A DNA stretch of 64,000 nucleotides, taken from assembly GCF_000013385.1 (NCBI RefSeq), contig NC_007760.1, positions 2,605,001 to 2,669,000 on the forward strand, read 5' to 3'. This DNA is from Anaeromyxobacter dehalogenans 2CP-C. Lineage in GTDB: Bacteria > Myxococcota > Myxococcia > Myxococcales > Anaeromyxobacteraceae. This document shows positions 9,701 to 33,413 of the stretch, in pieces. The notes below the pieces were generated by a model. It searched no databases, was not told where the DNA came from, and saw nothing but the letters and a program-made list of their open reading frames with translations. The translations under genes were made by a program, and so were the position numbers. How positions within the stretch are numbered: position 1 is the stretch's first letter; every line of letters starts with the position of its first letter.

Positions 9701-9712
9701 GGCCGTGCGCCC

Positions 9713-10762: not shown

Positions 10763-10776
10763 GACGCACCTCGGGG

Positions 10777-10797: not shown

Positions 10798-11034
10798 CGA
10801 GGCGACATCTGTAACGGGGACGCGCTGCGCCGACGGGACCCGACGGGAGCGTCCGCCATCGACGACCTCTCGGGCCCGCGTGGGGCCCGCGCGGAGACGC
10901 CTGGCCGAGCCCTCGACGAGCTGCGCGGGGACCCCGCACCGCAGTTCGGGCGCCCGGAGCGGCGGCCGCCGGCAGTCAGCCCCTCCCCTCCGGCAGGTCA
11001 CGAACCAGCCTGGCGCCGGTCCAATCCACTGATC

Positions 11035-12252: not shown

Positions 12253-12387
12253 CAGCGATCACACGGGCCGCTGAATGCGCCCCGGCCATTGCGTCACGAC
12301 GGGATCGCCGCGGTCGAGCCGCAGAGCGCCCCCGCGTAGCGCAGCGCGCGCGGAGGCGGGAACGGGTACACTCCCGCCGCCCTCGCC

Positions 12388-14022: not shown

Positions 14023-14126
14023 CCTGGCGAACGGCGCGGCGACGAAGGGAGCAACGGGTCGACTACGTGAGGCGTCCTACCCTGTCCGAACCCTTGAGCT
14101 CCGCCGAGCCTCGGGGGAATAGGGCC

Positions 14127-15484: not shown

Positions 15485-15638
15485 ATCAACTCTTGTTGTT
15501 GAGAGTTTTCGAAGCGACCTAATCGCCGACGCAAGTTCCACCGGGTAACCGCTCTTCACCAGTTAAATGGTTCGGCACTCGTGTCCGCGGACGTGCCAGT
15601 CGATGATCCCGAGCATGCACGCGCGACCGAGCGCCAAA

Positions 15639-16211: not shown

Positions 16212-16217
16212 AGCAAC

Positions 16218-16421
16218 CTAGAATGCTACCCGGGGGTACCGATCATCTGGGTAGTCCTGCTGCATCATGAGGAAGGACTTCCGTAGCCCAGCAAGCGACT
16301 TGCTCGCCTTTCCGGTGTAGCGAGCCGAGCCCAATGAGGCACGGTTCTTCTTGGCAGCCTGCAACAGGCCGCGAAACTCGTGGAGACGGTCGATGAACGC
16401 TTGGGCGGATGCCGTTCGCAC
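16218..16421 (-). CDS. 67-residue protein, in frame with downstream DUF4145-like gene
   Basis: Starts at GTG 16421 with GAGGCGGAC upstream, 9 bp after the stop of the previous gene. The product is helical and basic (RLHEFRGLLQAAKKNRASLG) and ends YPRVAF before TAG. The codons after the TAG read on in the same frame into the DUF4145-like protein. It may therefore be the N-terminal piece of that protein, or a separate small gene. Confidence 0.5.
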   Translation of the reverse strand: MRTASAQAFIDRLHEFRGLLQAAKKNRASLGSARYTGKASKSLAGLRKSFLMMQQDYPDDRYPRVAF

Positions 16422-16430
16422 GTCCGCCTC

Positions 16431-16847
16431 TTAGGGATTCGAATACTTCCAGATCTTTCTTTCACCCTGGGCAACACGCTGACGGCGGAGTTCTCCGCGA
16501 CGGGTGAGGGTCACCAGGGCTCCGCTCAGAGTCGTCAGTGGGTAGTGCCAACCGTGCGCTTGAAGCTCTTCACGGATCTCGCCCATTGCCCGCTGATTCC
16601 GAAATAGGCCCTCTCCTCGAAGAACAAGGAGACGACCGATAAGCGAGTTGGCTTCCTTCCTTTGCTCGGCGTTCCTTGTCGGGCGCCCGGCATGCTCCCC
16701 GCCCGGACTGGTGGTCGTCCTCTGTTCACCGGCAAGAAGGTGAGCAAGCATTACCTCGAAGGCCTTTACCTTTAGTTCACCCGCCGGCATATCGGCGACA
16801 GCCTGCTCGGCGAGCTTTCTCAATTCCATGAGCCGCTTTGCGTCCAC
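16431..16847 (-). CDS. Small winged-helix-like protein sharing a domain with the neighbouring gene
   Basis: 138 residues from GTG 16847, which has GGAGG five bases upstream. The first 60 residues are helical (AKRLMELRKLAEQAVADMPA), then comes a short linker. The C-terminal domain (about 85-138) has MGEIREELQAHGWHYPLTTL, TRRGELRRQ and RKIWKYSNP. The same order of conserved residues (GEI, AxG, TxLxGxL, TRxGxL, RxWxYxxP) ends the 264-residue protein encoded just upstream, so the two share a domain. It is probably a winged helix used for DNA binding or protein contact. No family name is assigned. Confidence 0.62.
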   Translation of the reverse strand: MDAKRLMELRKLAEQAVADMPAGELKVKAFEVMLAHLLAGEQRTTTSPGGEHAGRPTRNAEQRKEANSLIGRLLVLRGEGLFRNQRAMGEIREELQAHGWHYPLTTLSGALVTLTRRGELRRQRVAQGERKIWKYSNP

Positions 16848-16878
16848 CGCGGCCTCCTTCCTGGGCTTCGGCCCAACT

Positions 16879-17673
16879 TTAGTGTGCGCGCCGCTTGGGG
16901 GCCGTGTAGACCCAAACGCGCTTCCCATTGATGTCCTTCTTTTCGCGATCCAGCACGCCCGCCCGCGTTGCTTCCAGTAAATAGCCGGGTAGTGACGTGC
17001 TCTTCAGCATGCGACCCTGAGCGTGAAACCGCTCTAGGATTTCACCGAAGGTCCTGAACTGATCGAAGTAGCCTGCCTCGACCCATGGCACGAATACGGC
17101 GCTCTCGCCTCCGTGCCGTTTCCCTTTTCGCCGTGGGACCGAACCTGCCGACTTCTCGACCACCCTGGGCCGGGAGGGGGCCGGCCTAGGCGACTGCGCC
17201 TCGGTGGCAGCGGAGGGCTTCGGTAGCCTGTGCACCTGGGGTAGCGTTGGTAGTTTCGCCGTCTGCCCCGCGGCTCGCCGACTCCGTGGCTTGCTCTGTC
17301 TGTTTAACTCTTCGCGGATCGAGTCCAACGCGGCGATCGCCACGCTGTACTCGCCCTTAGCGGTCACCAGGACCAAGTGTTCTTCCTTCATGGCCATCAA
17401 GAGAGGCCGAACCGTTCCGCCCCCGACGCGAAGAGCTTCCGAGAGCGGTCCCGGGCGCGCGGTCGTCGCGTGCGGCGCGTCGGTCACGAAAGGCCAGCCC
17501 TGAAGCGCGACTAGATAAAGGAGGACGCGCTGTCGGAGACTGAGCTTCGCGGCGGGGGGGAGCAGAACGATCGTACCCGCCTCCGGGTCATAACGCGCGT
17601 ATGGTCCGATCAGTTCCTCGATCTGTTGCTCAGTCAACTGCGCGCCAGAAACGGTCAGATCCCTTAGCGCCAT
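16879..17673 (-). CDS. Two-domain winged-helix-like protein, first gene of the unknown cassette
   Basis: 264 residues from ATG 17673, with a good GGGAGG site; longer frames upstream have no RBS. The N-terminal half (about 12-115) contains LTEQQIEELIGPYARYDP, then LRQRVLLYLVALQGWPFVTD and a likely recognition helix near GGGTVRPLLMAMKEEHLV. A Pro/Arg-rich linker spans about 125-190. The C-terminal domain (about 205-260; FGEILERFHAQGRML, LLEATRAGVLDR, RVWVYTAP) matches the C-terminus of the next gene. As the promoter-proximal gene it could be the regulator or sensor of the cassette (inference). Confidence 0.65.
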   Translation of the reverse strand: MALRDLTVSGAQLTEQQIEELIGPYARYDPEAGTIVLLPPAAKLSLRQRVLLYLVALQGWPFVTDAPHATTARPGPLSEALRVGGGTVRPLLMAMKEEHLVLVTAKGEYSVAIAALDSIREELNRQSKPRSRRAAGQTAKLPTLPQVHRLPKPSAATEAQSPRPAPSRPRVVEKSAGSVPRRKGKRHGGESAVFVPWVEAGYFDQFRTFGEILERFHAQGRMLKSTSLPGYLLEATRAGVLDREKKDINGKRVWVYTAPKRRAH

Positions 17674-18063
17674 CGTAGCCTCCCAAGGCACCATTGTAGC
17701 GTGACAGCGAGTGAGAAGAACGTGCTGAGACGGCACCCAGAGTGTCGTGTGACCCGGAGACAAGTCGTCGAGCACTGAGGATAGGAGGAGCCATCCTTCC
17801 CCAGAGCCTTGACAGTCAGTCGCGGCGGTGTCGCACTCGGGAATGGTGGCGGCTACCCGGGGCGGCGCGGCGGCCCGCGCGCGACGCTCTGGGTACAACG
17901 CGGGTGGCTCGAGCACTCTGCGCCCCGCAGCAATCGCAGGCCCCTCCAAGGCGGGCAGCGACTTGCTGAGCGGAAAGAGCAGCCAGGCGCGGTGGACTAG
18001 GCTCCGCAGCGATAGGCGGCCAGACACCGGCCGCCTTCTTGCGCCGAACGCCCCGACCCCGCC
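17674..18063. other. Intergenic, 390 bp, upstream of the unknown cassette
   Basis: No gene is supported in any frame. The region lies between the DUF554 gene and the first cassette gene, both leftward, so it should hold the cassette promoter. No obvious operator was recognised. GC content rises from the cassette side to the DUF554 side, marking a likely boundary of acquired DNA. Confidence 0.35.
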
Positions 18064-18819
18064 TCACCACCCCGCCAGCACCACCACCAGCACCGGCGCG
18101 ATCACCAGCGCCGGCAGCATCGAGCCGACGCGGACCCGGCGATCCTCCATCCCCACGCCGGCGAGCAGCAGGTTCACGCCGATCGCGGCGACGAGGAGCC
18201 CGCCGGCGCCGCCGACGGCGAGCACGCGCGGATCGGTCGCTGGATCCGGCAGCACCCGCGCGAACGCGGCGGCGGCGACGCTGATGCCGCCCTGGAGGAG
18301 GAGGATCGGGAGCGCGGAGAGGCCGACGCCGGCGCCGTAGACGCCCGCGAGCGCGACCGCGGCGATCCCGTCGAGCGACGACTTCAGCACCAGCGTCTGC
18401 GCGTCGAGCGTCAGGCCGTTCTGGATCGAGCCGACGATCGCCATCGGCCCGATGCAGAACAGCAGCGACGCGGTGACGAAACCCTCGGTGAAGCGGCCTC
18501 CGCCGCCCACCTTGCGACGTGCCGCCTCGCCGATGGCGGTGAGCCGCTCCTCGATCTGGAGCAGCTCGCCCACGACCGCGCCGAGCGCGAGGCTCACCAG
18601 CGCGAGGATGATCCCGGGGAGCGGACCGGCGCGGACGGCGTCCAGGCCGCGCGCCATCCCGAGCCCGACGAGCAGCGTCACGAGCCCGAGCACCTGCATC
18701 AGCGTCCGCCCGAGGCGGTCCGGCAGCCGGGCGCCGACGCCGGCCCCGACGACGGTGCCGGCCGCGATCGCGGCGACGTTGATCCAGGTGCCGGAGGTGC
18801 GCGCGACGAGGTCGAGCAA
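18064..18819 (-). CDS. DUF554 family membrane protein
   Basis: 251 residues from TTG 18819. It has the family's N-terminal signature SGTWINVAAIAAGTVVGAGVG, then six to seven hydrophobic segments and LLFCIGPMAIVGSIQNGL in the middle, which matches DUF554 (proposed small-molecule carrier; YdfK/YqgA type). The start is uncertain: an ATG at 18891 would add 24 residues, but these would be encoded across the 16-bp attachment repeat and are unlike family N-termini. The upstream side is the left boundary of the integrated element, so its promoter may have been replaced by element DNA. Confidence 0.75.
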   Translation of the reverse strand: MLDLVARTSGTWINVAAIAAGTVVGAGVGARLPDRLGRTLMQVLGLVTLLVGLGMARGLDAVRAGPLPGIILALVSLALGAVVGELLQIEERLTAIGEAARRKVGGGGRFTEGFVTASLLFCIGPMAIVGSIQNGLTLDAQTLVLKSSLDGIAAVALAGVYGAGVGLSALPILLLQGGISVAAAAFARVLPDPATDPRVLAVGGAGGLLVAAIGVNLLLAGVGMEDRRVRVGSMLPALVIAPVLVVVLAGW

Positions 18820-18869
18820 CGGGCGCCCCAAAAGACGACGCCGGCTCAGCTCTGGGCTGGCCGGCGTCG

Positions 18870-18885
18870 AACTGGTTGCGGGGGC
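18870..18885. repeat. Left attachment repeat (distal copy)
   Basis: AACTGGTTGCGGGGGC is identical to 33331-33346. Identity stops on both sides (G versus C before, G versus A after). It is a partial copy of the tRNA-fMet 3' end with no tRNA around it, as expected for the far end of an element inserted at a tRNA 3' end. Confidence 0.85.
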
Positions 18886-19156
18886 GCGCAACGCCGAGAA
18901 TCAGCGCGCTGTCCCCCAACGTTTTCGTGGGTGCTGGACCGAGCCCGACGCGGTGGCGCGAAGCTCACCGACAACCGGTCGGCATGACGGCTCCCACCTG
19001 CCATCGCCGAACTTGGCCCTGTCCGCGTCGAGTGCATCGACCGCACGTCGGGGCGCAAGATGCCGGTCATGTTCTCCTGGAACAAACTTCCCCCCGGCCA
19101 TTACCGAGGAATGCGAGCCCCTCGAAGCTGCCGGTTTTCATGCGTGCGTTCGGCCG

Positions 19157-19537
19157 CTACGGCTCGCGCGCGAGGAGCAGGGCCTGCACAAGCTCCCACG
19201 GCAAGACAGAGCGGACCGCTGCGGCTTCGGAAGCGGTGTTCGGTTGCGCGCGCCGGAGAACTGTCTTCGCCTTCCGTAAGGCGAACGGAGGCACACCGGC
19301 CGCTCCGGCGAGCCACAGGAGGGCCGACGGGCTCTGCAAGTGGTTGTAGGCGAATCGAGCGGAGTGGTTGAACCCCTTGCGGTTGTAGAACCCGGGGCCG
19401 TCGTACTCGTCGAGCCACGCCATGAGCTGCTCGCGCACAGGCTTCGACGGGCGGAGCCGCTGGATGCGGCTTCGCAGTTCGGCCGGCGTCATCGTCGAGG
19501 TCTTCCGCCCGGTCTCATGGACGACCAGTTTCTTCAT
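19157..19537 (-). CDS. Hypothetical protein, last gene of the restriction operon
   Basis: 126 residues from ATG 19537, with GGGAGG upstream. It begins MKKLVVHETGRKTSTMTPAE and has a helical, basic body (RSRIQRLRPSKPVREQLMAW) and YNRKGFNHSARFAYNHLQSP. No known domain was recognised. It starts 13 bp after the ASCH gene, which itself follows hsdR by 9 bp, so it is probably co-transcribed with the type I system and may modulate it (inference). Confidence 0.6.
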   Translation of the reverse strand: MKKLVVHETGRKTSTMTPAELRSRIQRLRPSKPVREQLMAWLDEYDGPGFYNRKGFNHSARFAYNHLQSPSALLWLAGAAGVPPFALRKAKTVLRRAQPNTASEAAAVRSVLPWELVQALLLAREP

Positions 19538-19550
19538 CCGACGCCTCCCT

Positions 19551-19835
19551 TCACCTCTTCGGCTTCTGCGACTGACGGTCCCAGCACTGGACGCCGAGCA
19601 CCCGCCCAAGGTGGAGCTGGTACCCGCCGCCCTGACGCGTGACCCGGGTGACGACGACGATGGCCTCGGGTATGGGGTGGGTCATCCCGTTCAGCAGCCG
19701 CAGCTTGAACGGTGTCTTGAGCGGCTCGATGCGCCGCTTCCAGAACCGCGACTGCTCTCGGTATTCGACCCGCTTCGTCTTCGCGACGATGCGCGCGAAG
19801 AACTCGCGCTTGATGTTCATGGTTAGCGTGTCCAC
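19551..19835 (-). CDS. ASCH-domain-like protein
   Basis: 94 residues from GTG 19835, with AGGAGG five bases upstream. The core MNIKREFFARIVAKTKRVEYRE, followed by a Trp-Lys-Arg (FWKRRI) and a beta strand ending in LLNG, matches the ASCH fold (related to PUA domains), which binds RNA or modified nucleotides; some members act as amidohydrolases. It is short for the family but looks complete. Its position directly behind hsdR suggests an accessory that senses nucleic-acid state, perhaps modified bases (inference). Confidence 0.72.
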   Translation of the reverse strand: MDTLTMNIKREFFARIVAKTKRVEYREQSRFWKRRIEPLKTPFKLRLLNGMTHPIPEAIVVVTRVTRQGGGYQLHLGRVLGVQCWDRQSQKPKR

Positions 19836-19844
19836 GAATGCCTC

Positions 19845-22800
19845 CTAGGCAGCGAACGCCTCACCGTAGTGCCGGTAGACGTGCCTGAAGATGGCACCGG
19901 CTTTCTCCATGAAGAGGTCCTTCGTGTACGAGGCTGGCAAGCCCGTATCGAGCGCATCCTCGATCGCGACGCGAACCCGGGCGCGGGACTGAGCGGTCTT
20001 CTGCCAGTCGATCGTGAGAATTCCCCTGACCGTCCCCAGCAGTTGCCTCGCGACCTTCTTCACCTCGTCGCGCTCCGGCGGCGACAACTCGGGGCCGGGC
20101 CGCGTGAGAAGGTCGAAGACGACCAACTCCTCTTCCGAAAGCTGCTCCCGGATGTGACGCTTCTCCTCCTCCGAGAGTTTCTGACTCAGGTCCAGCAACT
20201 CCTGAAAGAGCTGCTCGATCTGCTTGGACCCGATGTTGTACTCCTCGATGAGGCTCTCGAAGCGTTCGCGCAGGTCGACACGCGTCTCGTTCTCGTCGAT
20301 CAGCCGTTCGAGTTGCGCTGCGATCGCGGCTTTGAGCCGTTCCAGGTCCAGGTTCCGCGTCTTCGACTGCCTGAATCGTTCCGCGAGCACCTGGAAGTCG
20401 ATGCGTGAGAGGTCGATCGGAGGGGGCCCGCCTTCAGCGATCTCCGCGCCACGGATGGAACGGTCGAGTACCTCCCCTACTCGCTGAAGAACGTCAGCGA
20501 GGTCCACCTTCTCAGGCGACAGTTCGGCGCGAATCTTGTCCACGAGCGCTTCGACTGTCGCCATCCGAACCGCGAACTCCACTGCGCGCCTGTGGGGCTT
20601 CACGGCGCTGTACAGGGCACTCACAAGCCGGCCCTGCGCCTGGAAGCCCTTCCTACGGTCGTCCGGGGACAGGAGCGCGTTCACCGCCTCCCCAACCCGT
20701 GTGAGCCTCTCGATGGCGTTGTGACTCTCCTCGATGCCAGACAGGCTCACCCGCGCCGACTTGCAGAAGGCGTCCAGCGCCGCTAGCGCAGAGCGTAGCT
20801 CGTCAACGAGGTCCTCCTTGTCGCGGACAGGCGTCCGGCCGCCGGTGCCTGCACCATAGATGGCTAGCGCCTTCTCCAGCGACTGAAAGACGTTCGCGTA
20901 GTCCACGATGACGCCGCTGTGCTTACCGGGGTAGACGCGGTTCGCCCTCGCGATCGTCTGCATCAGGGTGTGGTTCCGCATCGGCTTGTCCAGGTAGACT
21001 GTCGAGCAGCTCGGCGCGTCGAACCCTGTGAGCCACATCGCGCAAACAAAAACGAGAGCGAGCGGGTCCTCGGGGTCTTTGAACTTTTCGTCAAGGGACG
21101 GCTGCGACTGGACCATCCGCGTCCGGTGCGGAACGATATCGAGCCCGAGCTTCTGCATCTCCTCGATCTCGTTCTGGCCCGGCGACACGATGACGGCCAT
21201 ATCGACCGTGTCGAGCCGCTTCAGGCGGTCTGACAACCGCGCCTGCTCCTCCGGGGCCTTCTCGTAGTCCCGGAGTGCAGCTTTCACTCGCTCGCGCTCG
21301 GCATCCCACTCACGTCGCACCTTATCGTGCGTCCGAATTGCGGTCGCCTTGTCGATTGAGACGACCATCGCCTTCCCCTGGAAGCCGCGAGCGAGGAAGT
21401 GCTGGACGATGTCCTTAGCGACCGTGTCGAGCCGGTCGTCCCGAGTAATGAGATGGTACTTCTGTCCGAGGAGTTTCTGGAGGCGCGCCTCGTTCTCCGC
21501 GTCAAGAGCGGCGGCGTCGATGACGTCATACAACTCGTCGTTCAGGTCGGGGTTCGCGAGCCGCAGTTCGGGCGTCCGGTTCTCGTAGAAGAGGCGGACG
21601 GTAGCCCCGTCCTCAATCGACTGCTGGAAGTCGTAAATGGAGACGTAGTCGCCAAAGACCTCTCTTGTCTTTTCCTCAGTAGCAATCAACGGCGTGCCGG
21701 TGAACGCAACGAACATCGCGTTCGGCAGCGCCGCGCGCATGTTCATCGCAAGTTGGTCGTACTGGGTCCGGTGGGCCTCGTCGACGATTACGATGATCTC
21801 CCGACGATCGTTCAAGACCTCCATCGTCTGGAATTTGTGGATGAGAGTGAAGACGTAACGGTGGTTACCGCGGAGCAAGTCGCGGAGGTTCTCACCCGTG
21901 GTCGCATGGCACGCCGCAGCGTCCTCCACTGCTCCGCACGCAGCGAACGTCTTCGCGATCTGGTCGTCCAGTTCCACCCGGTCCGTGACGACAACGAACG
22001 TCCAGTTTCCAGGGACCGTGCGCAAAATCTTTTGCGCGTAGAAGACCATCGAGAAGCTCTTGCCGCTGCCCTGCGTCTGCCAGAACACGCCGCCGCGCCC
22101 GTGCCCCTCCTGCCGAGCCTTCAGCGTCGCCGCGATGGCGTTGTTCACGCCAAGGAACTGATGGTTCTGAGCGAGAATCTTCGTGAGGCCCGTCTTGTGC
22201 TCGGAGAAGAGCGAGAAGTTACGAACGAGGTCCAAGAGGCGTCCCTTCTCGCACGTTCCACGCAGCAGAACCTCCATCGAGATGCGCCTCGGTTCGTCCT
22301 CACGGTCGACCCGCTTCCAATCGAAGAAGCGACCCCAGTCCGCGGTCAGCGAGCCTACTTTCGCTTCAGTTCCGTTGGACGCGATCAGGAGCGCGTTGAA
22401 CGCAAACAGCTGCGGAACCCCGTTCTGAGCGTGTTTGTAGCTTGTGAGGTTCTCATCAAACGCTTGGCGAGTTGGAACGCCCGGCTTCTTCAACTCAATT
22501 ACCACGAGTGGGAGACCGTTCACGAACAGAACGATATCCGGGATACATTTATAGAGGGCACCCCTAACTGCGAACTGCTCGACCGCGAGGAAGTCATTCT
22601 CCGTCGGGTGGTCCCAGTCGACGACCCGCACCGTGCGCAGTTCATTCTGGCCGGTGCGCGGGTCCCGCACGGTGACCTTCACCCCCTCGCTCAGGAGACG
22701 ATGCACCTCGCGATTCGCGCCTGCCGGATCCATCGCCGTACGGTCACGAAGCAGTTCGTCGATGGCGGTGTCCACTCCTGAGGGCGGTGTTCCCGGGTTC

Positions 22801-22985
22801 AGCTTCGCTAGCGCATGACGGAGGCGACGCACTAGCGCCACGTCGCGATCGGACTCGCGCCCGAGCGTACCTGATGAGCCAAATACCTCGTCCGCCCCCG
22901 ATGCTGCCGACCACTGAAGCGCGGCGAGGACGTCCATCGCCGCCGCTTCGACAAGTGCCAGTTCGCTGTAGGCGTTGGCGGTCAT
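19845..22985 (-). CDS. hsdR: Type I restriction enzyme R subunit (HsdR)
   Basis: 1046 residues from ATG 22985, a normal length. The nuclease site is D150 with IELKK (E164, K166), the PD-(D/E)xK arrangement. The SF2 motor has Walker A QTQGSGKS (about 303-310), VDEAHR (about 401-406) and the later motif AFTGTPL. The C-terminal helical region contacts the methylase complex. The subunit translocates and cuts DNA lacking the methyl mark, in complex with HsdM2HsdS. It starts 5 bp after the hsdS stop, and all expected motifs are present, so the enzyme looks functional. Confidence 0.96.
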   Translation of the reverse strand: MTANAYSELALVEAAAMDVLAALQWSAASGADEVFGSSGTLGRESDRDVALVRRLRHALAKLNPGTPPSGVDTAIDELLRDRTAMDPAGANREVHRLLSEGVKVTVRDPRTGQNELRTVRVVDWDHPTENDFLAVEQFAVRGALYKCIPDIVLFVNGLPLVVIELKKPGVPTRQAFDENLTSYKHAQNGVPQLFAFNALLIASNGTEAKVGSLTADWGRFFDWKRVDREDEPRRISMEVLLRGTCEKGRLLDLVRNFSLFSEHKTGLTKILAQNHQFLGVNNAIAATLKARQEGHGRGGVFWQTQGSGKSFSMVFYAQKILRTVPGNWTFVVVTDRVELDDQIAKTFAACGAVEDAAACHATTGENLRDLLRGNHRYVFTLIHKFQTMEVLNDRREIIVIVDEAHRTQYDQLAMNMRAALPNAMFVAFTGTPLIATEEKTREVFGDYVSIYDFQQSIEDGATVRLFYENRTPELRLANPDLNDELYDVIDAAALDAENEARLQKLLGQKYHLITRDDRLDTVAKDIVQHFLARGFQGKAMVVSIDKATAIRTHDKVRREWDAERERVKAALRDYEKAPEEQARLSDRLKRLDTVDMAVIVSPGQNEIEEMQKLGLDIVPHRTRMVQSQPSLDEKFKDPEDPLALVFVCAMWLTGFDAPSCSTVYLDKPMRNHTLMQTIARANRVYPGKHSGVIVDYANVFQSLEKALAIYGAGTGGRTPVRDKEDLVDELRSALAALDAFCKSARVSLSGIEESHNAIERLTRVGEAVNALLSPDDRRKGFQAQGRLVSALYSAVKPHRRAVEFAVRMATVEALVDKIRAELSPEKVDLADVLQRVGEVLDRSIRGAEIAEGGPPPIDLSRIDFQVLAERFRQSKTRNLDLERLKAAIAAQLERLIDENETRVDLRERFESLIEEYNIGSKQIEQLFQELLDLSQKLSEEEKRHIREQLSEEELVVFDLLTRPGPELSPPERDEVKKVARQLLGTVRGILTIDWQKTAQSRARVRVAIEDALDTGLPASYTKDLFMEKAGAIFRHVYRHYGEAFAA

Positions 22986-22990
22986 GCACC

Positions 22991-24205
22991 CTAACCCGCT
23001 GAGAGTTGTCCGGCCATCAACCGAGGTAGCAGCAGGTCGCGCGTCGCTCGGAGGTTCCGAATCCGCTGCTGGAGTGTCGCGATTTCGCGCCCGATAGGTT
23101 CGAACACTTCCTTGGCCCTCGCCAGCACAGGCGGCGGTGGCTCCCCTAGCAGAATGCCACGGATGTGGGAGTCCCCAAGGTGGGCAACAGTCGTACCGAT
23201 GATCGCTCGGTTCAGCGCCTGAACCGGCGCGGTAAGCGCAAGGAGCAGGTGAAGTGCGGACCACTCTCCCGACGGACGGAAGCGGGCAACGCGCTGGTTC
23301 TGAAGCGCTCGCCCGCTCGACCAGATGCACATGTGAAAGTCCCCATCCATGCCGACAAGGACGTCGCCGTTTTGAATCTCGTATCTCGAGGCGGCGGGCT
23401 CGGTCGTATACGTTTCCGAACGACCGACAGGGATGTCGCGAATCCGAACAACGGGTGTTCCTGCGGCCGAGTCCTCAGAGAAGAGCGCCGACTTGAAAGG
23501 AAATCCGTACTGAACCTCCGCAATCTCCTTTGGTGAGCGAAGGACCCAATCTCGTGGAACGCGTCCAATCCGCGTCGACATCCGGGATGTCGTTTGCGCC
23601 CCTGGGTAACGGAACAGCACGAACCACTCGCGATAGAGCGCACGCGCCATCCGTTCGAGCACCCCGATGCGGCGCTTGCTGTTATCGATGAGGCCATCGT
23701 AGGCGGCCAAGACTCTCGCAATGCGACGCTGCTCCGAAAGCGAGGGGACTCGTACCGGAAACTCCGGGAATTTTGTCAGCGGCAGGCGATCTACCGTCGC
23801 ACCCGCGAGCGTGTTCTTTCGGACGACCTCTCGCCACTCGGGCGTGAAGAAGTAGTAGTGCAGGAATCGAGGGTCTACCCGCGCCAGGTTCGGACGGATG
23901 AGCGCCATCCGCCGGCCCAGACATCCCCTGAACCCATTCGGAATGATCGCGTACCGATTGAGCGTCGCTTCGTAGGTGAAAACCAGGTCGCCTGCTCGTG
24001 GTTCCACTCGACGCGTCCATTTGGGGAAGTCATCCTCTGCGATATGGCGAATGGAGGAGAGGTCGAGGTGCCCGTCCTCCGTGACGTTCGAGATTCCTAG
24101 AAACACGGGGCCCTCGACCGCAGGAGCTGGTGTCGCGTGCGGCCCGTCGAAAAGCCCCTCGTACAGTTCCGAGATTGCGACAAGACTCGACTTGCTTGGG
24201 CGCAT
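22991..24205 (-). CDS. hsdS: Type I restriction enzyme specificity subunit (HsdS)
   Basis: 404 residues with the usual two target-recognition domains: about 1-140 and 220-350. Each is followed by a conserved helix: SLSEQRRIARVLAAYDGLID near 155-174, and VFEPIGREIATLQQRIRNLR near 370-390. The end RDLLLPRLMAGQL is the family's standard C-terminus. It chooses the bipartite DNA site for HsdM and HsdR; the site cannot be read from sequence. It lies between hsdM (6 bp) and hsdR (5 bp). No inverted repeats suggesting phase-variable shuffling were noticed. Confidence 0.94.
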   Translation of the reverse strand: MRPSKSSLVAISELYEGLFDGPHATPAPAVEGPVFLGISNVTEDGHLDLSSIRHIAEDDFPKWTRRVEPRAGDLVFTYEATLNRYAIIPNGFRGCLGRRMALIRPNLARVDPRFLHYYFFTPEWREVVRKNTLAGATVDRLPLTKFPEFPVRVPSLSEQRRIARVLAAYDGLIDNSKRRIGVLERMARALYREWFVLFRYPGAQTTSRMSTRIGRVPRDWVLRSPKEIAEVQYGFPFKSALFSEDSAAGTPVVRIRDIPVGRSETYTTEPAASRYEIQNGDVLVGMDGDFHMCIWSSGRALQNQRVARFRPSGEWSALHLLLALTAPVQALNRAIIGTTVAHLGDSHIRGILLGEPPPPVLARAKEVFEPIGREIATLQQRIRNLRATRDLLLPRLMAGQLSAG

Positions 24206-24211
24206 CTTCGG

Positions 24212-25828
24212 CTACCCCAGTATCTCGGCCGCGGTCTTGGTGATCACCTTCTCGAACTCCCTCGCCTCAGCGGTCAGAGTTTCAAATTCTTCCGCCAGCC
24301 CCTCGAACTGGGTTCTGAAATCTTCGTCGCTCACCTCTTCTCCCTGGGCGGCACCCACGTAACGACCCGGATTGAGACTCCATGCTTGCTTCTCGATCTC
24401 CGAGATCGTTGCCGCCTTGCAGAACCCGGCCACATCGGCGTACGTGGGCTTGTTTCCAAACACTTCGCGCAGGCGGTATTTTGCCTCCGCTCCGCCGAAG
24501 GTGAGGTCCACCTCCTCCCTACGAAATAGGCGTGCGACATTCGCGAGGAAACCGATCTGCGCTTCAGTCCAGTCCCGGTGCGCACGGTCGACTTGCCGAT
24601 AGATGTGCTGGGCGTCGATAAAGAGCACTTTGTCGCGTCGGTCCTTCGGCTTCCCGCGGTCCAGGAACCACAGCGTGCAGGGCAACGCGACGGTGTAGAA
24701 CATCTTCGACCCGACCGAGATGATCACGTCGACCGCGCGGGATTCGATGAGCTTCCGACGTAATTCCTGTTCGGAAGCGCGCGCGTCCGGAGCAGAGCTC
24801 GCCATTACGAACCCGGCGCGCCCGGATTCATTCAGTGCGGAGTAGAAGAGTTGAATCCAGAGGTAGTTCGCGTTGTCCACGTTCGGAACTCCGAACGGGA
24901 AGCGACGCCCTGGGCCGACCGCGTCCCGGATGCGATCTTTGTCCACCTTGTCGACGTTAAATGGAGGATTCGCCAATACGAAGTCGAACCGCCCGACAGC
25001 GTTGTGCGGGTCATCGTAGTAACTGTTGATCTCGCCGCCGTGGCGAATGTCACCCTCAAGCCCATGCACAGCGAGGTTCATGCGGCAGAGTTGGCCGGTG
25101 GTGTCGACCTTCTCGACGCCATGGATTGCGAGGCCGCCGTTCTTCTTGTGCTCGGAGACAAATCTGGCGCTCTGCACGAACATACCGCCTGACCCGCAGG
25201 CAGGATCGAGCACACGCCCCTTGAACGGCTCAAGAATCTCCACCATTAGGCGAACGATTGGCTGTGGCGTGTAGAACTCACCGCCGCCTTGGCCCTCCGC
25301 CATCGCAAACTCACCAAGAAAGTACTCGTAGATCTTCCCGAAAGAGTCTCCCTCAAGATCGACTGGGATTGCCGAGAACGCCTTCAGTAGCTCTTTTAGC
25401 GGTCGAGCTTTGAATTGCTGGTAGGTCTTCGGGAGGACACCTGCGAGCTGCTCGTTGTCGCGCTCTACTGCGCGCATCGCATCGTCGACCGCCTGCCCGA
25501 GCGTCTTCCCATCGCGGCCTCCTTCGGGGAACTCCAGAAGCTCGCTGAAGCGTGCTTCCGAGGCGAGAAACAGCACGCCCTCGGCGTGGTAGCTGGCAGG
25601 GTCGTCAACCCGGGAGCCCCGCCGCCCCGTCGTGACCTTCGCCAACTCGGCGCGCCGGACGGCGAATCTCGCGTCGGCGAACTTCAGGAAGATGAGGCCG
25701 AGAATGGGCTGGCTGTACTCTGCGGACTTCAGGCCGCTGTTGGCGCGCAGTTCATCCGCTGCGGCCCAGAGGCGCTTCTCCAGCGTCGCGGCGGCGACGT
25801 CCTTCTCCGTGGGGGCGATCCATCGCAT
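24212..25828 (-). CDS. hsdM: Type I restriction enzyme modification subunit (HsdM)
   Basis: 538 residues. An N-terminal helical domain ([21 protein letters not shown]) is followed by the methyltransferase core with the SAM motif [15 protein letters not shown] (about 207-221) and catalytic NPPF (287-290), the gamma-class N6-adenine methyltransferase order. The C-terminal coiled helices contact HsdS. It methylates adenine in the half-sites recognised by HsdS. It is the first of the three hsd genes. The TIR-like gene 107 bp upstream points the same way and may share the promoter. Confidence 0.96.
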
Positions 25829-25935
25829 CGCTCCATTTAGCCTGATTTCCGGGCGAGATCGAAGCTTGACGCGTGTTCCGCGACGAGACGGCGCCCAGCT
25901 CGTTCGCGGCGTCGTGTCGATGCGGTACAGCGGGC

Positions 25936-26721
25936 CTACCTTGAGAACCCGAGGTTGATGATGGGCGGGCCACCACCACCGAACTGCTTCAGCTTCGCGG
26001 CAAGTTCGCGCTCAAGCTGCTGAAGGCCTTCGCCGTTGGCGAGATACAAAAGCGTCCGGTGGTGACGCATGTCGAAGGGCACGTCATCGATGGTCTGAGC
26101 GATGGGGACCACGTGCTTGCCGAGCGTATGAGCGATGCCGGTCTCGTACATTACGTTCGGGTTCTTCCGACTGAAGTCCACGACTACGACCTGGGCCCGA
26201 AAGATCAAGCTGAAGATGTCCTGCACGATGACGCTGTCCTGCCACATGTCGTCCACCCGCATAGAGCGGAGCGAGTTGGCCGTGCATGCCCGCTTCATCG
26301 CCTCATAGACAGGCTTGAACTCTGGGCTGAACGGCATCATCACAGCGACAAGATCGGACTCGACGCTGCCGTCCGGAATCTGGAAGACGTTCGGCGCGAA
26401 GGTGATCTTGCGCTCGGAGGGCTTAGCGGAGACGTACTCAGTCTTCTCTTCGCCAGGGAACTTCTCGTTCAGGTACTCCTCGATCACGTCGAGGGCACGA
26501 ACGTCGCGGTCCGAGATTCGCCGAAGGACCGTCAGGACGTTTCCCTCGTAGTCCTCATCGTGCCAGGAGAGGCTACGTAGCAGCCGGTCGTGACCGGTGA
26601 TGATCTTCGACTGCCCCGAGAGCAGTCCGACTTCCTCCCAGTTTCCAGCGTTGAAGGTGGCAACGATGCGTGCGCGAAGCGCGATCAGTCGCTTCGCGAG
26701 GGCGAGAGGGTCTGTCATCAT
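25936..26721 (-). CDS. TIR/nucleoside-deoxyribosyltransferase-like putative defence effector
   Basis: 261 residues from ATG 26721. A helical N-terminal domain (about 1-95) contains [19 protein letters not shown]. The C-terminal Rossmann-like domain (about 120-245) has [48 protein letters not shown] (Glu193) and [10 protein letters not shown]. This order is typical of TIR/NDT-fold proteins that cut nucleotide cofactors or bind second messengers in anti-phage systems. The start has no clear RBS; upstream GTG or ATG codons (to 26805) remain possible. Placement before hsdM suggests a back-up effector or linked defence gene (inference). Confidence 0.72.
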
Positions 26722-27373
26722 GAAGTCGAATTCTGTCTCATCGCGACCCGCACTGCGAGCGCGGATTGACGGAGCCACATCGTGGGCCACCGTCGTCGCG
26801 CCCACGGGTGCACGGGCGGCGGCGATCGCGCAGCACCACGACCGTTAGGCCAAGGGCTGAATCAGACCTCTCGTCCGAATCGAGGTCCCCGGGCACGCGG
26901 GCGCGGTTCGGGGCCCAGGGGTGGGGTCGGCCGGAAACGGGCCACGTAGGGGGTGGCCCTGCCGTCATCCTGCCCTGCTCATCCCATGGTCCGTGACACC
27001 GAGTCACGGGGTGCCTGCCATGGCGCGCCCGCTGTGTAGAAGACCCTCCGAGCATCGCGGGTGATCGGCGCCCCGACGCCCGCGCCGAGGGCCAGGCATG
27101 GGCAACGGGTCAGCGCGGGACGTAGCGGTGGTGGCGTACGACGCAATGCAGGTGAGGTCTGGAGGAAGGAACTGGCCCACAGGCTCGCGGCCCTGGCCGG
27201 CGCTGGGTCGAGCGGAGCGGGGAAGCCGAGGAGTTGGCCGCCCTCCTGCGCAAGGGAGGGCGCCAGACGATCTAGGAGGCCGCTGGGCACGTCGGACAGG
27301 CGAGGCCGACGGGCTCGTCCGCGTAGCGCGCTCGCGCCGCTCCTGCGGGGCGCCAGGGCTCTCCTGCGCTGGC
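26722..27373. other. Intergenic, 652 bp, inside the element
   Basis: No gene is supported: the open frames here are GC-bias artefacts without RBS. The stretch contains the inverted repeat CCGTGAC-accga-GTCACGG at 26991-27009, a possible operator for the leftward effector/hsd operon. It also marks the change from the lower-GC restriction genes to the higher-GC half of the element. Confidence 0.35.
26991..27009. promoter_or_regulatory. Perfect 7-bp inverted repeat, possible operator
   Basis: CCGTGAC, five bases, GTCACGG. It lies 270 bp upstream of the TIR-like gene in otherwise featureless DNA. The binding protein is unknown. Confidence 0.35.
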
Positions 27374-27970
27374 TTACGCTGCGCCGCGCTTGAGGGCGAG
27401 CCGGGCCGTGCTCTCCTTGCACCCCACAACCTCGGCGGCCTTCCGCTGCGACATGCCCCCGGCGATGAGCGCGCGGAGCTTCTTGACCTCGACCGGCAGA
27501 AGCGCCCGCGGACGCCCGAGCTGTTTCCCCTCGCGGCGAGCGCGCGCGAGGCCCGCCTTCGTCCTGGCGATCAGGTTCGCCCGTTCCATCTCAGCCATCC
27601 ACCCGAAGATGCCGACGAGGAGCCCGCGAGTCTGCCCTGCGTCCTCGACCCACGACTCCCGCACTGAGAGGACGCGGCACCCGTAGCCGTCGAGCTTCGC
27701 GATTCGGTTGATGCACTCGCGCATGTCGCGGTCGAGTCGGTCGAGCGCGACCACGACTACGGCGCGGACGCGGCCCGTACGCGCATCTTCCATGAGGCGG
27801 TCGAGGACCGGGCGCTTCTTCTTCGCGGAGCCCTGCTCTTCGTAGAACACAGGCGCGAACCCCCTGGCCTCCGCGAGACGCGCGACGTCCGCGCGCTGGT
27901 TCTCGACGGTCTGGCGGCCGTCGATGGAAGAAACGCGCAGGTAGCAGGCGGCTTCGGGGCGACTGGCCAT
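27374..27970 (-). CDS. Small serine recombinase (resolvase/invertase family)
   Basis: 198 residues from ATG 27970 (a second ATG at 27994 would add eight). The catalytic motif is YLRVSSIDG with Ser14. Later come VVVVALDRLDRDMRECI and EMERANLIARTKAGLARAR, the conserved catalytic and E-helix segments. The C-terminal helix-turn-helix has GMSQRKAAEVVGCKESTARL. It is the length of Tn3-type resolvases and phage invertases. It is separate from the large recombinase at the right end and may resolve multimers of the excised circle, or be left from an older transposon. Confidence 0.9.
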   Translation of the reverse strand: MASRPEAACYLRVSSIDGRQTVENQRADVARLAEARGFAPVFYEEQGSAKKKRPVLDRLMEDARTGRVRAVVVVALDRLDRDMRECINRIAKLDGYGCRVLSVRESWVEDAGQTRGLLVGIFGWMAEMERANLIARTKAGLARARREGKQLGRPRALLPVEVKKLRALIAGGMSQRKAAEVVGCKESTARLALKRGAA

Positions 27971-29362
27971 GCGCGCATCATACGTCCGTTTCATGCGCGG
28001 GTCAACGCGCCGCCCCGGGGCCGCTGGTTTCGCACGGTTGCGCCGAGGGGTTGAGGGGACGTTTCCTGCGCACGCCGACGGGAACGTCGAACCGCAGGCC
28101 GCGAGCGCCGAGCGGACGCAGCGTCGAGGCGGCCCAGGGCGCCCGTCGGTCCCGGCGGCGCGCGGGCGGCAGAGCCCGGCGGCCGTCGACCCGGCGGCGC
28201 GAGGGCGCGAGGGCTCCGGCGGCCCGGCGGCGCCCGCGGCGCGAGGGTCCGGCGGCGCGGCGGCGTCTGCGGCGGGGAGTACGTCTTACGGGGGGTTCCC
28301 AGCCGCCCCAGAGGGCTGGCGTCGTATGACTCTTCCTGGTTAGACCTCTGACCATGTACCCTCGCACCTTTGGGGTATGCCTGGACGCGTCGCGGCACGC
28401 GAGCGGCCCGGGGGGCGGGGCGGGCGTGCGCGCGCTCGACCCCGAACCACCCCCGGAAGAGGGCTAACGAGTTGCAGCGACTGAGCGTCGAAGAATCGCT
28501 CTGGCGGGCTCCTAGGCGGTCGAGCGGGAGGCCGGGACGAGGGATTCCAGGGACTTGCGGACCGCGCGCCTGCAACGCACTTCGGACCGACGCACGGAAA
28601 CGCGTGATAGCGGCCAGTTTCAGATACGGGGGGGACACACACCGGCTTGATCGAACCCCGTGCGTCGCTCCTAGGGCCATTTCCGATCGTTCTAGGGGCA
28701 TTCCTGCGGCCGCCCGAGACCCCGCTTTCCGGGCCCGGCGGGCGCCGGGGGGTCGCGGAGCTGGCGGCCGAGCAGGCGGGAGGCTCCTGCCCGAAGGCCA
28801 CGGCCTGGAGCGGCGCACCGCGGGACCACGGCGCCGCCCGGTCCGGCTCGCGCGCGCGGCGATGGCCAAGGGCTGGAGGACCAGAGGGCCGCCTGGTCCT
28901 GGGGCGTCAGCCCTTGAGCCCCTGGCCTTCAGGCTTCGACCGAAGCGCCTTCGCATCCCCAGCGCCGAAGCACCCGAAGGCCCATCGGCCCTTTAACCCT
29001 TAGTTCTTTTAGTCTTTTCGCGCGCTCTATATGGCGCGAGCCGCGCGCTCCCCAGCCGCGCCTCGCCGCTATACCCCTAACGGACTACCACCCGCCCGTT
29101 CCGACGCGCGCCCTAGTAGGGGCGGGTCGAACGTCACTCGGTCCGCCGAACGGCGGTATAGAGAGAGGGCGCGAAGCAGACCCCGCCGCCGCTTCACCTG
29201 CGCGACCTGCCCGCCCCCTCGATCTCGACGCCCTCGGTCCCGAGGGCCACGCGCTCCCGCCCCGCCGCCCGGCCCCTCGGCCGCGCCACCTTCCCGACCC
29301 GGCGCCTTCCTGGCGCGCGGGTTCTCGTCGTTCAACCCACAGTCGAGTCGAGGAATCCCCCG
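27971..29362. other. Gene-poor 1.4-kb stretch of the element
   Basis: No frame here has both an RBS and protein-like composition. 28150-28270 is extremely GC-rich with imperfect short repeats of CGGCGGCGCGAGG type. 28058-28088 holds the near-perfect inverted repeat GACGTTTCC/GGGAACGTC, close to the resolvase gene and a possible resolution site. 28670-28705 contains two similar units, CTAGGGCCATTTCC and CTAGGGGCATTCC. 28990-29040 is locally T-rich with CTATAT, a possible promoter. It could hold a replication origin or res site; nothing decides this. Confidence 0.35.
28058..28088. repeat. Inverted repeat next to resolvase gene
   Basis: GACGTTTCC (28058-28066) and GGGAACGTC (28080-28088) are complementary at eight of nine bases around a 13-base spacer. 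They lie about 90 bp upstream of the resolvase start, where resolution sites of such enzymes are usually found. Confidence 0.35.
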
Positions 29363-30187
29363 ATGTCCCAGAAGACCGAGAAGCAGCACGTCCCGAACGT
29401 CAACGAGGCCGAGGCCGCCGCGCAGCGCGCCAGCACGGAGGCCCGCGCGGCCGCCGAGCGCGTCGCCGCCCTCCGTGCCGCCCTGGCCCACGCCGAGACG
29501 CACCCGCTGGACTTCAGCGACGGCGAGACCTACGCGAGCGAGGTCGCGAGACTCCGCTACGACCTCGCCAAGGCGGCCGACACGGCGAACCGGGCGCAGG
29601 CCGCGCGAGAGGCCGCCGCCGAGGCCTTGCAGGCCGCCAAGGACGAGCAGGCCCTGAGCGACGCACCGCGCCTGGAACAGGAGGCCGAGGCCGCGCGCGC
29701 GCAGTTCGTCAAGATCGCCCAGGAGTGCGCCGCCAGCCTCGCCGCGACGCTCGCTTGCGCGGTCCTGGCTCACGAAGCGCTGCACGCCAACCGCGCCGAG
29801 CTGCGCGCCGCGGGCCACGTCCCCGAGGGCGACGCGCGCACGTCGATGGGTTTCGCGTGGCTGGGCCTGCTCGACAAACGCCCCGGCGCCGTCGGCGCGT
29901 TGGCCACGGCCACTAACGTCCTCGCGTGGGTGGAGGCTGCGCCCGTGCGCGAGGCCGAGGAGAAGGAATTCCAGCGTCGCCGCGCCCTGGAGCGCGAGCG
30001 CGCTGCGCTGGCGGGGCATCTCGGACCGGAGGCCAAGGCCGAGGCCGAGGCTCGCCGTGCTGCCGACATCAAGCGCATGAGCGACACCAGGGGCGGCGGC
30101 GCGTTCCTGGGCGTGCGCGGCTCCGTCGCCGAGAAGGAGCTGGCGGTCTACCGCGCCAACGCCTCGCTGAACGGGAAGGGCGAGTGA
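29363..30187 (+). CDS. Unknown Ala/Glu-rich coiled-coil protein
   Basis: 274 residues from ATG 29363, with GAGGAATCCCCCG upstream. The first 120 residues are nearly all charged heptads (AERVAALRAALAHAETH, LEQEAEAARAQF), a strong coiled-coil pattern. The middle is more hydrophobic (ASLAATLACAVLAHEALHAN, about 128-147). A charged tail ends in RGSVAEKELAVYRANAS. No known domain was recognised. It opens an operon of four overlapping or closely spaced genes. Possible roles range from structural scaffold to partition; none is supported by a motif. Confidence 0.65.
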   Translation: MSQKTEKQHVPNVNEAEAAAQRASTEARAAAERVAALRAALAHAETHPLDFSDGETYASEVARLRYDLAKAADTANRAQAAREAAAEALQAAKDEQALSDAPRLEQEAEAARAQFVKIAQECAASLAATLACAVLAHEALHANRAELRAAGHVPEGDARTSMGFAWLGLLDKRPGAVGALATATNVLAWVEAAPVREAEEKEFQRRRALERERAALAGHLGPEAKAEAEARRAADIKRMSDTRGGGAFLGVRGSVAEKELAVYRANASLNGKGE

Positions 30188-30711
30188 TGCGCCCCGGCGA
30201 CGAAACGAAGGGCACGAAGCCTGCGAGGCGGAAGCGCGTCACGCTCTCGGACCGCCTCCACGACATCGCCCGGCGCGAGGAAGCCGTGGAGCGCGTCGCG
30301 GCGAACCTCGCTCAGCGCGCCGAGCGCCTGCGCCAGCGCGCCGAGGAGCTGGCCCGCGGAGCTGACGCGGTCATGGGCGACGTGGAGCGCGACATCGAAC
30401 GGCGCGCGGCCGAGGCACGCGAGAAGGCCAAGGCCGCCTCGATGTTCACGGAGCAGCACGCCGAGGTCGCCGACCGACTCGCGAAGGGGCTCCCCGCGTT
30501 CGACGGCGCGCCCCGCCCCACGGCGCGCGAGACCACCGCGGCTCTGCAGTTGCTCGCGTCGCTCGACGCGAAGGCCCGTGAGCGCGAGGCGAAGGGCGGC
30601 GGCACCATCATACTTCTGGTGAAAGACCCCTTCGGCGACGGCGAGGTGAAGCTGCAGGCGGACCGCGCTGCCGTCGAGCGCCAGCGCACGGGGCGGGAGG
30701 ACGGCGAGTGA
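30187..30711 (+). CDS. Unknown coiled-coil protein
   Basis: 174 residues. Its ATG overlaps the previous stop by one base (TGATG), so translation is coupled. A basic start (KPARRKRVTLSDRLHDIARR) leads to a long helix with repeated AQRAERLRQRAEEL units (about 30-95), then a more globular end with GGGTIILLVKDPFGDGEVKL. It resembles its neighbour in composition but not in sequence. No family was recognised. Confidence 0.62.
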   Translation: MRPGDETKGTKPARRKRVTLSDRLHDIARREEAVERVAANLAQRAERLRQRAEELARGADAVMGDVERDIERRAAEAREKAKAASMFTEQHAEVADRLAKGLPAFDGAPRPTARETTAALQLLASLDAKAREREAKGGGTIILLVKDPFGDGEVKLQADRAAVERQRTGREDGE

Positions 30712-31085
30712 CGCGCGACGAGTTGCGAGCGGCGACCGCGCGCAGATTCCCCGTGCGCCTACCGTTCCCCGAGGCGCTGCACTCGACCGACGCCCGCATC
30801 AGCCCCGGCGCGCGGCTTCTGCGCTACGTGGCCGACGTGTTGGACGAGGAACGGCTCCACCCCGACGACGTCATGCTCGCGCGCGCCGACTATCACCGGC
30901 TCATGCGCGAGGTGGCCCGCTGGCTCCGTCGCCGAGGCGTGAGGCGCGCCGACCTGCTTGCAGCCTGCACGGCTTGGAGTGCGGCGTGCGGGCCGCTGGA
31001 AGACAGGCGGGGCGTGGTGCCGAAGGGGACGATCTACGTGAGGGCTGAAACCAACCGAGCACATCAAGGAGTTGACAATGGGTGA
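30708..31085 (+). CDS. Unknown 125-residue protein
   Basis: Starts at GTG 30708, overlapping the previous stop by 4 bp (GTGA). It is a basic, helical protein with ARLLRYVADVLDEERLHPDD and MREVARWLRRRGVRRADLLA in the middle. The last residues overlap the start of the next gene. Coupling and codon usage support a real gene; function is unknown. Confidence 0.6.
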   Translation: MTRDELRAATARRFPVRLPFPEALHSTDARISPGARLLRYVADVLDEERLHPDDVMLARADYHRLMREVARWLRRRGVRRADLLAACTAWSAACGPLEDRRGVVPKGTIYVRAETNRAHQGVDNG

Positions 31086-31338
31086 CGCAGACTGGGAGTG
31101 GACGCAGGAGGAGGTCGCGGCCCTCGCGGCGACGAAGCCGGAATTCGTCGCGGACGTGAACGGGCGCAAGGTGCCGACCATGGACAAGGCGGACATCCTC
31201 GCCCTGGCGGCTCGCTACCCGTCGATGCGCCTGAACAAGGCGGTGCCGTCCGCCGAGGCCCGCGCGAACGCAGCCGCGCAGGACGCCGAGCGCGACGCGG
31301 CGCTTCGGGCCCGCTACCCGTCCATGTTCAAGCCCTGA
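31078..31338 (+). CDS. Unknown 86-residue protein, last gene of the operon
   Basis: ATG 31078 has AAGGAG six bases upstream and overlaps the previous gene by 8 bp. The protein is acidic and Ala-rich. The motif ARYPSM occurs twice, near residue 42 and as the C-terminus RARYPSMFKP, so a short peptide unit is repeated. A strong terminator follows 27 bp after the stop. Function unknown. Confidence 0.6.
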   Translation: MGDADWEWTQEEVAALAATKPEFVADVNGRKVPTMDKADILALAARYPSMRLNKAVPSAEARANAAAQDAERDAALRARYPSMFKP

Positions 31339-31364
31339 GACCGGCCCCAAGACCCGCAGGTTCC

Positions 31365-31407
31365 GAGGCCCCGGCGTCCAGCGCGCGCCGGGGCCTCTGT
31401 CGTTTTT
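31365..31407 (+). terminator. Rho-independent terminator
   Basis: GAGGCCCCGGCG (31365-31376) and CGCCGGGGCCTC (31386-31397) form a perfect 12-bp stem with a nine-base loop, followed by TGTCGTTTTT. It ends the operon of unknown genes and isolates the recombinase cassette. Confidence 0.9.
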
Positions 31408-31425
31408 CGGCGGCCCGGTCGTGTG

Positions 31426-31453
31426 TGAGACCTTCCTGCACGTAACGGTCTCA
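31426..31453 (+). promoter_or_regulatory. Inverted repeat overlapping start of recombinase cassette
   Basis: TGAGACC (31426-31432) and GGTCTCA (31447-31453) are perfect 7-bp arms around 14 bases. The right arm includes the A of the first start codon. No Shine-Dalgarno sequence is visible, so this site may control both transcription and translation of the cassette. Confidence 0.5.
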
Positions 31454-31596
31454 TGCGCCGCGTCGCCGCCGCCCAGCTCGCCCTGCCGCTCTGGTTCCCG
31501 CCGGTCCAGCTCGCCCTGCCGTTGAAGGCGCGCAAGCCGCGCCCGCAGAAGGTCGCGGTGCGCGTGCCGCCGCGGGTCTCCAGGCCGAAGCCGTGA
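31453..31596 (+). CDS. 47-residue basic protein with two putative beta-clamp-binding motifs
   Basis: Not a shadow: its stop overlaps the next gene's start (GTGA) and that gene in turn overlaps the recombinase (ATGA). The hexapeptide QLALPL occurs twice, at residues 8-13 and 19-24, followed by a basic Pro-rich tail (KARKPRPQKVAVRVPPR). QL-x-LPL is the known form of the short motif by which polymerases and repair proteins dock on the bacterial DNA sliding clamp. Two copies in so short a protein suggest a clamp-binding peptide that recruits or blocks replication factors (inference). Confidence 0.55.
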   Translation: MRRVAAAQLALPLWFPPVQLALPLKARKPRPQKVAVRVPPRVSRPKP

Positions 31597-31756
31597 AGGC
31601 CCTGGCCCCCGAGCCGGACGTGGAGGTGGTCGGCGAGCCTCCCGAGCCCGAGGCCCTGCGCCTCTTCTGGCGCGCGTTCGCAAGCATCGCGGCGGACCTC
31701 CTAGACGAGGACGATCTCGGCAGCGATGATCAGGGCGCCAAGGAGGCCGCCGCCCG

Positions 31757-31760
<4 letters not shown>
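31593..31760 (+). CDS. 55-residue acidic protein coupled to the recombinase gene
   Basis: Starts at GTG 31593, overlapping the 47-residue gene by 4 bp, and stops at 31760, overlapping the recombinase ATG by 4 bp. The product is acidic, with one helix (ALRLFWRAFASIAADLLDED). Small genes of this kind are often found directly before serine recombinase genes in other genomes (recalled). A role as regulator or directionality partner is possible but not shown. Confidence 0.55.

Positions 31761-33413
<1,653 letters not shown>

Follow-up and report, generated by a model that had tools for sequence, protein, structure and literature searches.

Two genomic islands with different large serine recombinases share the layout and both ends of a four-gene operon of no recognised family

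The islands inserted at ssrA in Dehalococcoides (DsiB/DsiA) are, as far as the available excerpts of their description go, the closest described relatives in kind of the element analysed here. In those excerpts, their large serine recombinase (LSR), ~540 aa long, reads through to a stop codon beyond the island's edge; they also encode another serine recombinase of ~200 aa, a syntenic accessory module next to the recombinase for ParB-, RecF-, Mom- and RNA-polymerase-like proteins, and cargo (PMC3146451). Little is known of how many small islands that carry defence genes persist and move, and the transfer of many islands has been called enigmatic, at least in the excerpted text of PMC11389934. 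Here, we describe an island lying in a window of 64,000 nt from Anaeromyxobacter dehalogenans 2CP-C (NC_007760.1, 2,605,001-2,669,000; a host genome of 5,013,479 bp in a single contig), with all positions given in window numbering unless a contig or locus is named, and focus on four coupled genes, g1-g4, that occupy the accessory position between its two recombinases.

We place the island at 18886-33347 (14,462 bp), because a 16-bp repeat, AACTGGTTGCGGGGGC, stands at both ends (18870-18885 and 33332-33347) and in a single copy at the empty site of the congener G001, where DNA resembling window positions 18059-18885 joins directly to DNA resembling 33331 onward. The att search used a 17-base probe with up to 3 mismatches, for which shuffled sequences gave two or more copies in 4 of 100 cases. 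The right copy is inside the 3′ end of the target, a tRNA-Met (CAT) gene on the minus strand that is left intact (33334-33410; ARAGORN, Rfam), and the LSR gene (31757-33355, plus strand; 532 aa; Pfam Resolvase, Recombinase and Zn_ribbon_recom) has its stop codon in this host gene; joined to 18886-19300 as a circle, the same frame would yield 668 aa instead of 532, a situation also described for DsiB. Site-specific insertion, short direct repeats, an empty site elsewhere, an LSR with Resolvase, Recombinase and zinc-ribbon domains whose gene runs at its 3′ end into att at an RNA gene, and a second, small serine recombinase together mark this as an LSR island. These ends correct the extent assumed in the first-pass annotation, which credited g1-g4 with half of the element's coding capacity: the operon makes up 13.7% of the att-bounded element, and a share of about 47% is reached only if the resolvase, operon and LSR are counted alone. 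The att repeats, together with the empty site, rule out a small element of ~6 kb running from the resolvase to the LSR. A tandem insertion of two elements would be expected to leave a third att copy; only two were found, though a middle copy may have decayed. Another low-GC insert, beyond the island's limits, occupies 14052-18059 between transporter-like and DUF554-like genes (names assigned by eye); G006 and G001 differ at this insert, the genes of which have no clear families.

The left part of the island carries defence cargo on the minus strand: a type I restriction subunit gene, hsdR (19845-22985; PADLOC REase_I, E 3.8e-174), the specificity subunit gene hsdS (22991-24205; Pfam Methylase_S, PADLOC), the methyltransferase gene hsdM (24212-25828; Pfam N6_Mtase and HsdM_N, PADLOC), and a gene for an AbiJ_NTD5 protein with a TIR-like C-terminal part (25936-26805; Pfam 7.8e-31, PADLOC TIR effector 5.3e-6). 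GC content is 63% in the cargo and 73% in the backbone, suggesting that the cargo probably came from elsewhere. To its right are a small serine recombinase gene of the resolvase/invertase type (27374-27994, minus strand; Pfam Resolvase, 4.3e-35), divergent from the operon and 3.8 kb from the LSR gene, and then a 1.37-kb stretch without a clear coding signature (27995-29362) that contains the backbone's lowest-GC 60 bp (28972-29031). Between the operon and the LSR gene lie two small plus-strand frames, one of 47 aa with a coding signature (31453-31596) and one of 55 aa that overlaps the LSR start (31593-31760). The 47-aa frame holds two QLALPL stretches, which we take to resemble sliding-clamp binding motifs. 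No relaxase, as an integrative mobilizable or conjugative element would carry, was found among the element's proteins scanned with Pfam, and no recognisable packaging or capsid-remodelling gene among those scanned with PHROGs, both scans covering all but hsdR (PADLOC only) and the frame at 19551-19835.

The operon is real and tightly coupled, and its family is not one that we recognise. All four genes are on the plus strand: g1 (29363-30187, 274 aa) and g2 (30187-30711, 174 aa) share 1 nt in a TGATG junction, g2 and g3 (30708-31085, 125 aa, GTG start) share 4 nt in GTGA, and g3 and g4 (31078-31338, 86 aa) overlap by 8 nt, just as the first-pass annotation had described. Long open frames arise cheaply in GC-rich DNA, and we compared codon composition across competing frames. 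Each of g1-g4 has GC contents of 0.70-0.79, 0.51-0.54 and 0.82-0.92 at the three codon positions, matching the LSR gene, and four of the five rival frames measured lack this pattern (29031-29657 on the plus strand; 29069-30019, 30148-30459 and 30901-31683 antisense). The fifth, antisense over g3 at 30759-31196, carries a similar but weaker pattern (0.71/0.56/0.80), which makes g3 the least certain of the four genes. A simple gene caller that takes the longest start in each frame does not list g2, because its longest start (29926) overlaps g1. Downstream of g4, a perfect 13-bp stem with a T-rich tail (31365-31397, plus strand) closes the operon, as had been claimed for it, and 3 of 200 shuffles fold equally well; a terminator consensus scan found 1 site against a shuffle mean of 2.6. 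Across the element, Rfam returned the tRNA, one sub-threshold match at the terminator, and nothing else.

None of g1-g4 has a significant match in Pfam, NCBIfam, PHROGs or PADLOC, the best weak match (E 0.021) belonging to g2, whose weak matches at this level and below are to coiled-coil proteins of many kinds; the absence of a known domain noted at first pass therefore holds for these libraries. The two coiled-coil proteins described there fare unequally. For g2, the predicted structure contains one helix of 80 residues (residues 20-99, pLDDT about 75-97), followed by another helix and then an end of low confidence (mean pLDDT of the whole model, 74.7), whereas the call for g1, an Ala-rich and presumably helical protein, was made on composition only. 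Likewise, the single basic protein of that description is indeed g3 (pI 10.3), but g2 is basic too (pI 9.4). The repeated ARYPSM motif of g4 does occur twice. Among solved structures nothing matched g2, and g3, for which the model is unusable (pLDDT 45), gave two weak matches (E 0.13 and 0.32). A terminase-like nature for g2, suggested by eye from its positional equivalent in the second island described below, finds no support in Pfam, PHROGs or the fold search.

Conservation of the neighbourhood beside serine recombinases had been proposed as a check, and it succeeded once, when a search with g4 led to contig C135 of G008 (locus L063; E 6.5e-4). There, a small serine recombinase gene on the minus strand (7023-7934) is followed by a 1.1-kb gap without a clear coding signature, then h1 (9083-9913, the counterpart of g1), h0, h2, h3, h4 (10727-10954, the homologue of g4), a 13-bp terminator stem, h5 and an LSR gene (11746-13275). 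In the window's own genome, about 100-170 bp separate the flanks of this insert of ~9.6 kb, and the G008 island is therefore also an insertion; it sits between NUDIX-like and uracil-DNA-glycosylase-like genes (named by eye), and a PD-T7-4-like protein (E 1.6e-13) is among its cargo. The two islands thus have the same layout, counterparts of g1 and g4, and the terminator, but differ in insertion site, cargo and recombinases, with LSRs only 26% and small recombinases 36% identical; G008 has the extra frames h0 and h5, and its h2 and h3 are not demonstrably kin to g2 and g3.

The relationship is clearest for g4 and h4, which are 44% identical over their full length and align with a z of 9.6, reached by none of 478 background genes (BLASTP 2e-4). 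For g1 and h1, 30% identical over their full length, the end-to-end alignment score was likewise reached by none of 478 background genes and its z by 2, while the pair was undetected by phmmer at E 0.05 and gave a pairwise BLASTP E of 0.85. Scores for g2-h2 and g3-h3 were reached by 45 and 92 of the 478, respectively, and lie within background (BLASTP for g2-h2, 0.009), so that conservation is demonstrated only for the operon's two ends. Although GC-rich DNA inflates the scores of such matches, the best DNA match between the backbones begins 94 nt before both start codons and continues through g1 and h1 in exact register. The terminator stems begin 27 and 28 nt past the respective stop codons, with 3 of 200 and 2 of 200 shuffles folding equally well. 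A frame in G006 scoring z 7.5 with g4 proved to be a chance match through a common N-terminal stretch only.

Several observations concern the surroundings of the G008 island. A different element of the genome that contains the window encodes a relative of the Cys-rich h5 (L063:11143-11541), 32% identical to it (L094:6035-6430), and no further relatives at E 1e-4 were found in 195 genomes; next to that relative, L094:6488-6802 encodes a small protein with matches to phrog_15261 (2.4e-7) and to a PHROG for the small terminase subunit (8.4e-5). The window's own genome and G001 hold comparable islands (L124 and L126) in which the G008-type LSR gene is interrupted or shortened; these lie near recA- and ComM-like genes (by eye).

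For the wider family we searched 195 genomes, in which the genus is represented by one genome per species. Searches were run with g3 (24 and 195 genomes), with g4 and the g4/h4 profiles (195 genomes, the profiles at E 0.01), with the g2/h2 profile (24 genomes, E 0.01), and with the g1/h1 profile and h5/L094 (195 genomes, E 1e-6 and 1e-4). At these thresholds, the window and G008 hold the only credible copies. Although 83 of the 195 genomes passed E 0.1 with g3, all matches besides the window were at 0.0038 or weaker, and we treat them as chance, mostly short stretches within much longer frames, with one locus (L098) inspected. For g4, 31 of 195 genomes passed E 0.1, and beyond the window and G008 all were again at 0.0038 or weaker. 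The g4/h4 profiles added four genomes at E 0.002-0.01: in two, the matching protein has an RRYPDM stretch and by eye resembles an antitoxin, in a third (L097) the neighbouring genes show no such operon, and the fourth (G035) is known by score alone, as is the one G023 match to the g2/h2 profile (E 0.0027). Contig scans with g1 and g4, a method that reaches close relatives only and missed the G008 copy, found none, and plasmids searched with g3, g4 and h1 yielded none either. In G020 and G022, relatives of the small serine recombinase (L089 and L090) lie beside small membrane- and coiled-coil-like proteins, in stretches that are perhaps prophage (by eye).

The tRNA-Met site itself is occupied repeatedly. 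LSR relatives, mostly broken, abut the same gene in four of the eight other genomes of the genus (G002, G003, G004 and G005), with only that of G004 at full length, and G006 has an LSR tail at a distance of 9.9 kb; tblastn of g1-g4 against nine stretches from such sites gave a best E of 0.6. A small recombinase 71% identical to the window's lies in a G005 stretch that lacks g1-g4, and on this comparison the small recombinase is not tied to the operon. The G004 LSR (L023), 43% identical to that of the window, ends in the same tRNA-Met gene and, as in the window's island, has a small serine recombinase nearby on the opposite strand, in G004 a fragment. The slot between the LSR and this truncated recombinase holds, in place of g1-g4, a gene for a 406-aa replication-initiator-like protein (HTH_36, 4.5e-8; DnaD_N, 1.3e-6; replication-initiation PHROGs, best 5.6e-10), with about 20 bp between the initiator-like gene and the small recombinase and no gene-poor stretch. 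By analogy, and from a single island, this gene is the best clue to the role of the slot.

Because the two islands agree in the operon's ends, in the gene-poor stretch and in gene order despite having different LSRs, small recombinases, sites and cargo, the operon seems to belong to the carrier rather than to its freight, and since the module recurs in a distant version in another island of this sort, g1-g4 probably work for the island and not in defence of the cell. From the observed frames, island ends, empty site and layout common to two islands with different LSRs, sites and cargo, we propose that g1-g4 may be a module in the backbone of genomic islands that form a small class, in which the LSR would insert the island at its fixed site and the left part would carry exchangeable defence genes. 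We tentatively favour, among the roles of replication, packaging and defence raised at first pass, replication or maintenance of the excised form, to which the operon's position points best: the operon would most likely aid the excised circle, acting from the gene-poor stretch between g1 and the divergent small serine recombinase, which might resolve dimers or assist the LSR. Continued mobility of the island, action of the operon on the excised form and cooperation of the four proteins are inferences here. In both backbones, the lowest-GC 60 bp (50% against a mean of 72-73%) lies about 295-390 bp before g1 or h1, within a gene-poor stretch of 1.1-1.4 kb, and such a dip would fit an origin. Its recurrent position is weak evidence, because a promoter would likewise account for an AT-richer dip and the gene-poor stretch takes up 18-23% of each backbone; a hairpin before g1 and h1 is no better than in shuffles (17 of 200 and 42 of 200). 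Weighing against a replication role, Pfam, PHROGs, NCBIfam and PADLOC find no replication domain in g1-g4, only two copies of the module were found, conservation is demonstrated for the operon's two ends alone, and the G004 analogy is one island, in which the gene-poor stretch is missing. A more specific form of the proposal, which we regard as doubtful, is that g1-g4 constitute a replication-or-maintenance module with no recognised domain, driving the excised circle of an unnamed family of LSR defence islands, with the paired RYPSM of g4 serving as a docking peptide that holds the complex together or recruits a host factor; if true, such islands would be plasmid-like elements residing as defence islands.

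The directionality factors with which serine integrases work are small proteins, in many cases encoded close to the integrase, and the operon, which encodes small basic or acidic proteins, stands just before the LSR gene in both islands. It could thus control integration and excision, with g3, g4 or one of the 47- and 55-aa frames acting as the LSR's directionality factor and the others as regulators. We consider this unlikely: a directionality factor should change along with the LSR that it serves, and here the two LSRs are only 26% identical. The operon is missing beside the G004 relative at the same tRNA-Met gene, nothing matched g1-g4 at E 0.1 in five loci where LSRs related to that of G008 occur, and a terminator separates operon from LSR in both islands. 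It is improbable that the island is a phage satellite (a group that includes PICI, P4 and PLE) in which g1-g4 redirect packaging or interfere with a helper phage, even though the island is small, bears defence genes and has no transfer genes that we found. Satellites often encode proteins without homologues, according to the excerpted text of PMC11389934, and g1-g4 are likewise without a known family. Positive evidence for packaging is nonetheless absent: no capsid, terminase or portal match appeared among the proteins scanned with PHROGs, g1, g2, g3, h2 and h4 had no tblastn match in 50,697 phage records, six viral contig scans were empty, and none of 86 viral structure matches to the g2 fold reached E 0.001.

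Co-directional genes of no recognised family in an island bearing known defence genes might also form a new multi-gene anti-phage system. We rate this as quite improbable, and defence as the least likely of the three roles first put forward, because the module is common to two islands with differing defence cargo, staying beside the recombinases while the cargo on the other side is exchanged, and because no PADLOC model matches g1-g4 (best E 0.036). Least probable of all is that the operon is a relic in rapid decay that no longer has a function; its very narrow distribution would agree with decay, whereas four open, coupled frames with coding signature, full-length g1/h1 and g4/h4 similarity and a retained terminator argue against it. 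A module common to two islands with different recombinases, sites and cargo offers a compact, testable candidate for the missing function, and it suggests a conserved carrier on which the defence genes are freight that can be exchanged.

Compared with known islands, the window's element resembles SCC elements (CcrA/CcrB/CcrC) in being an LSR-driven island with cargo, and its LSR has CcrB as best NCBIfam match (E 1.4e-27); at 96.6 bits this match falls far below the curated Ccr family cut-off of 900, and the target is a different one. In the literature within reach, from which most subscription journals are absent, searches on Anaeromyxobacter serine recombinases and islands and on LSR islands with defence genes or satellites turned up no description of the g1-g4 module. 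With the ssrA islands, on the excerpts available, the element shares an LSR 3′ end running through att, a small serine recombinase, an accessory module, exchangeable cargo and an RNA-gene target. It differs from them in that its target is tRNA-Met rather than ssrA, in that their small recombinase adjoins the LSR gene and is co-oriented with it whereas the window's is divergent with the operon in between, and in that g1-g4 match none of their ParB, RecF-like, Mom or RNA-polymerase-domain genes. As judged from sequence, then, the island is of a known kind, and its accessory module is new and has been found twice.
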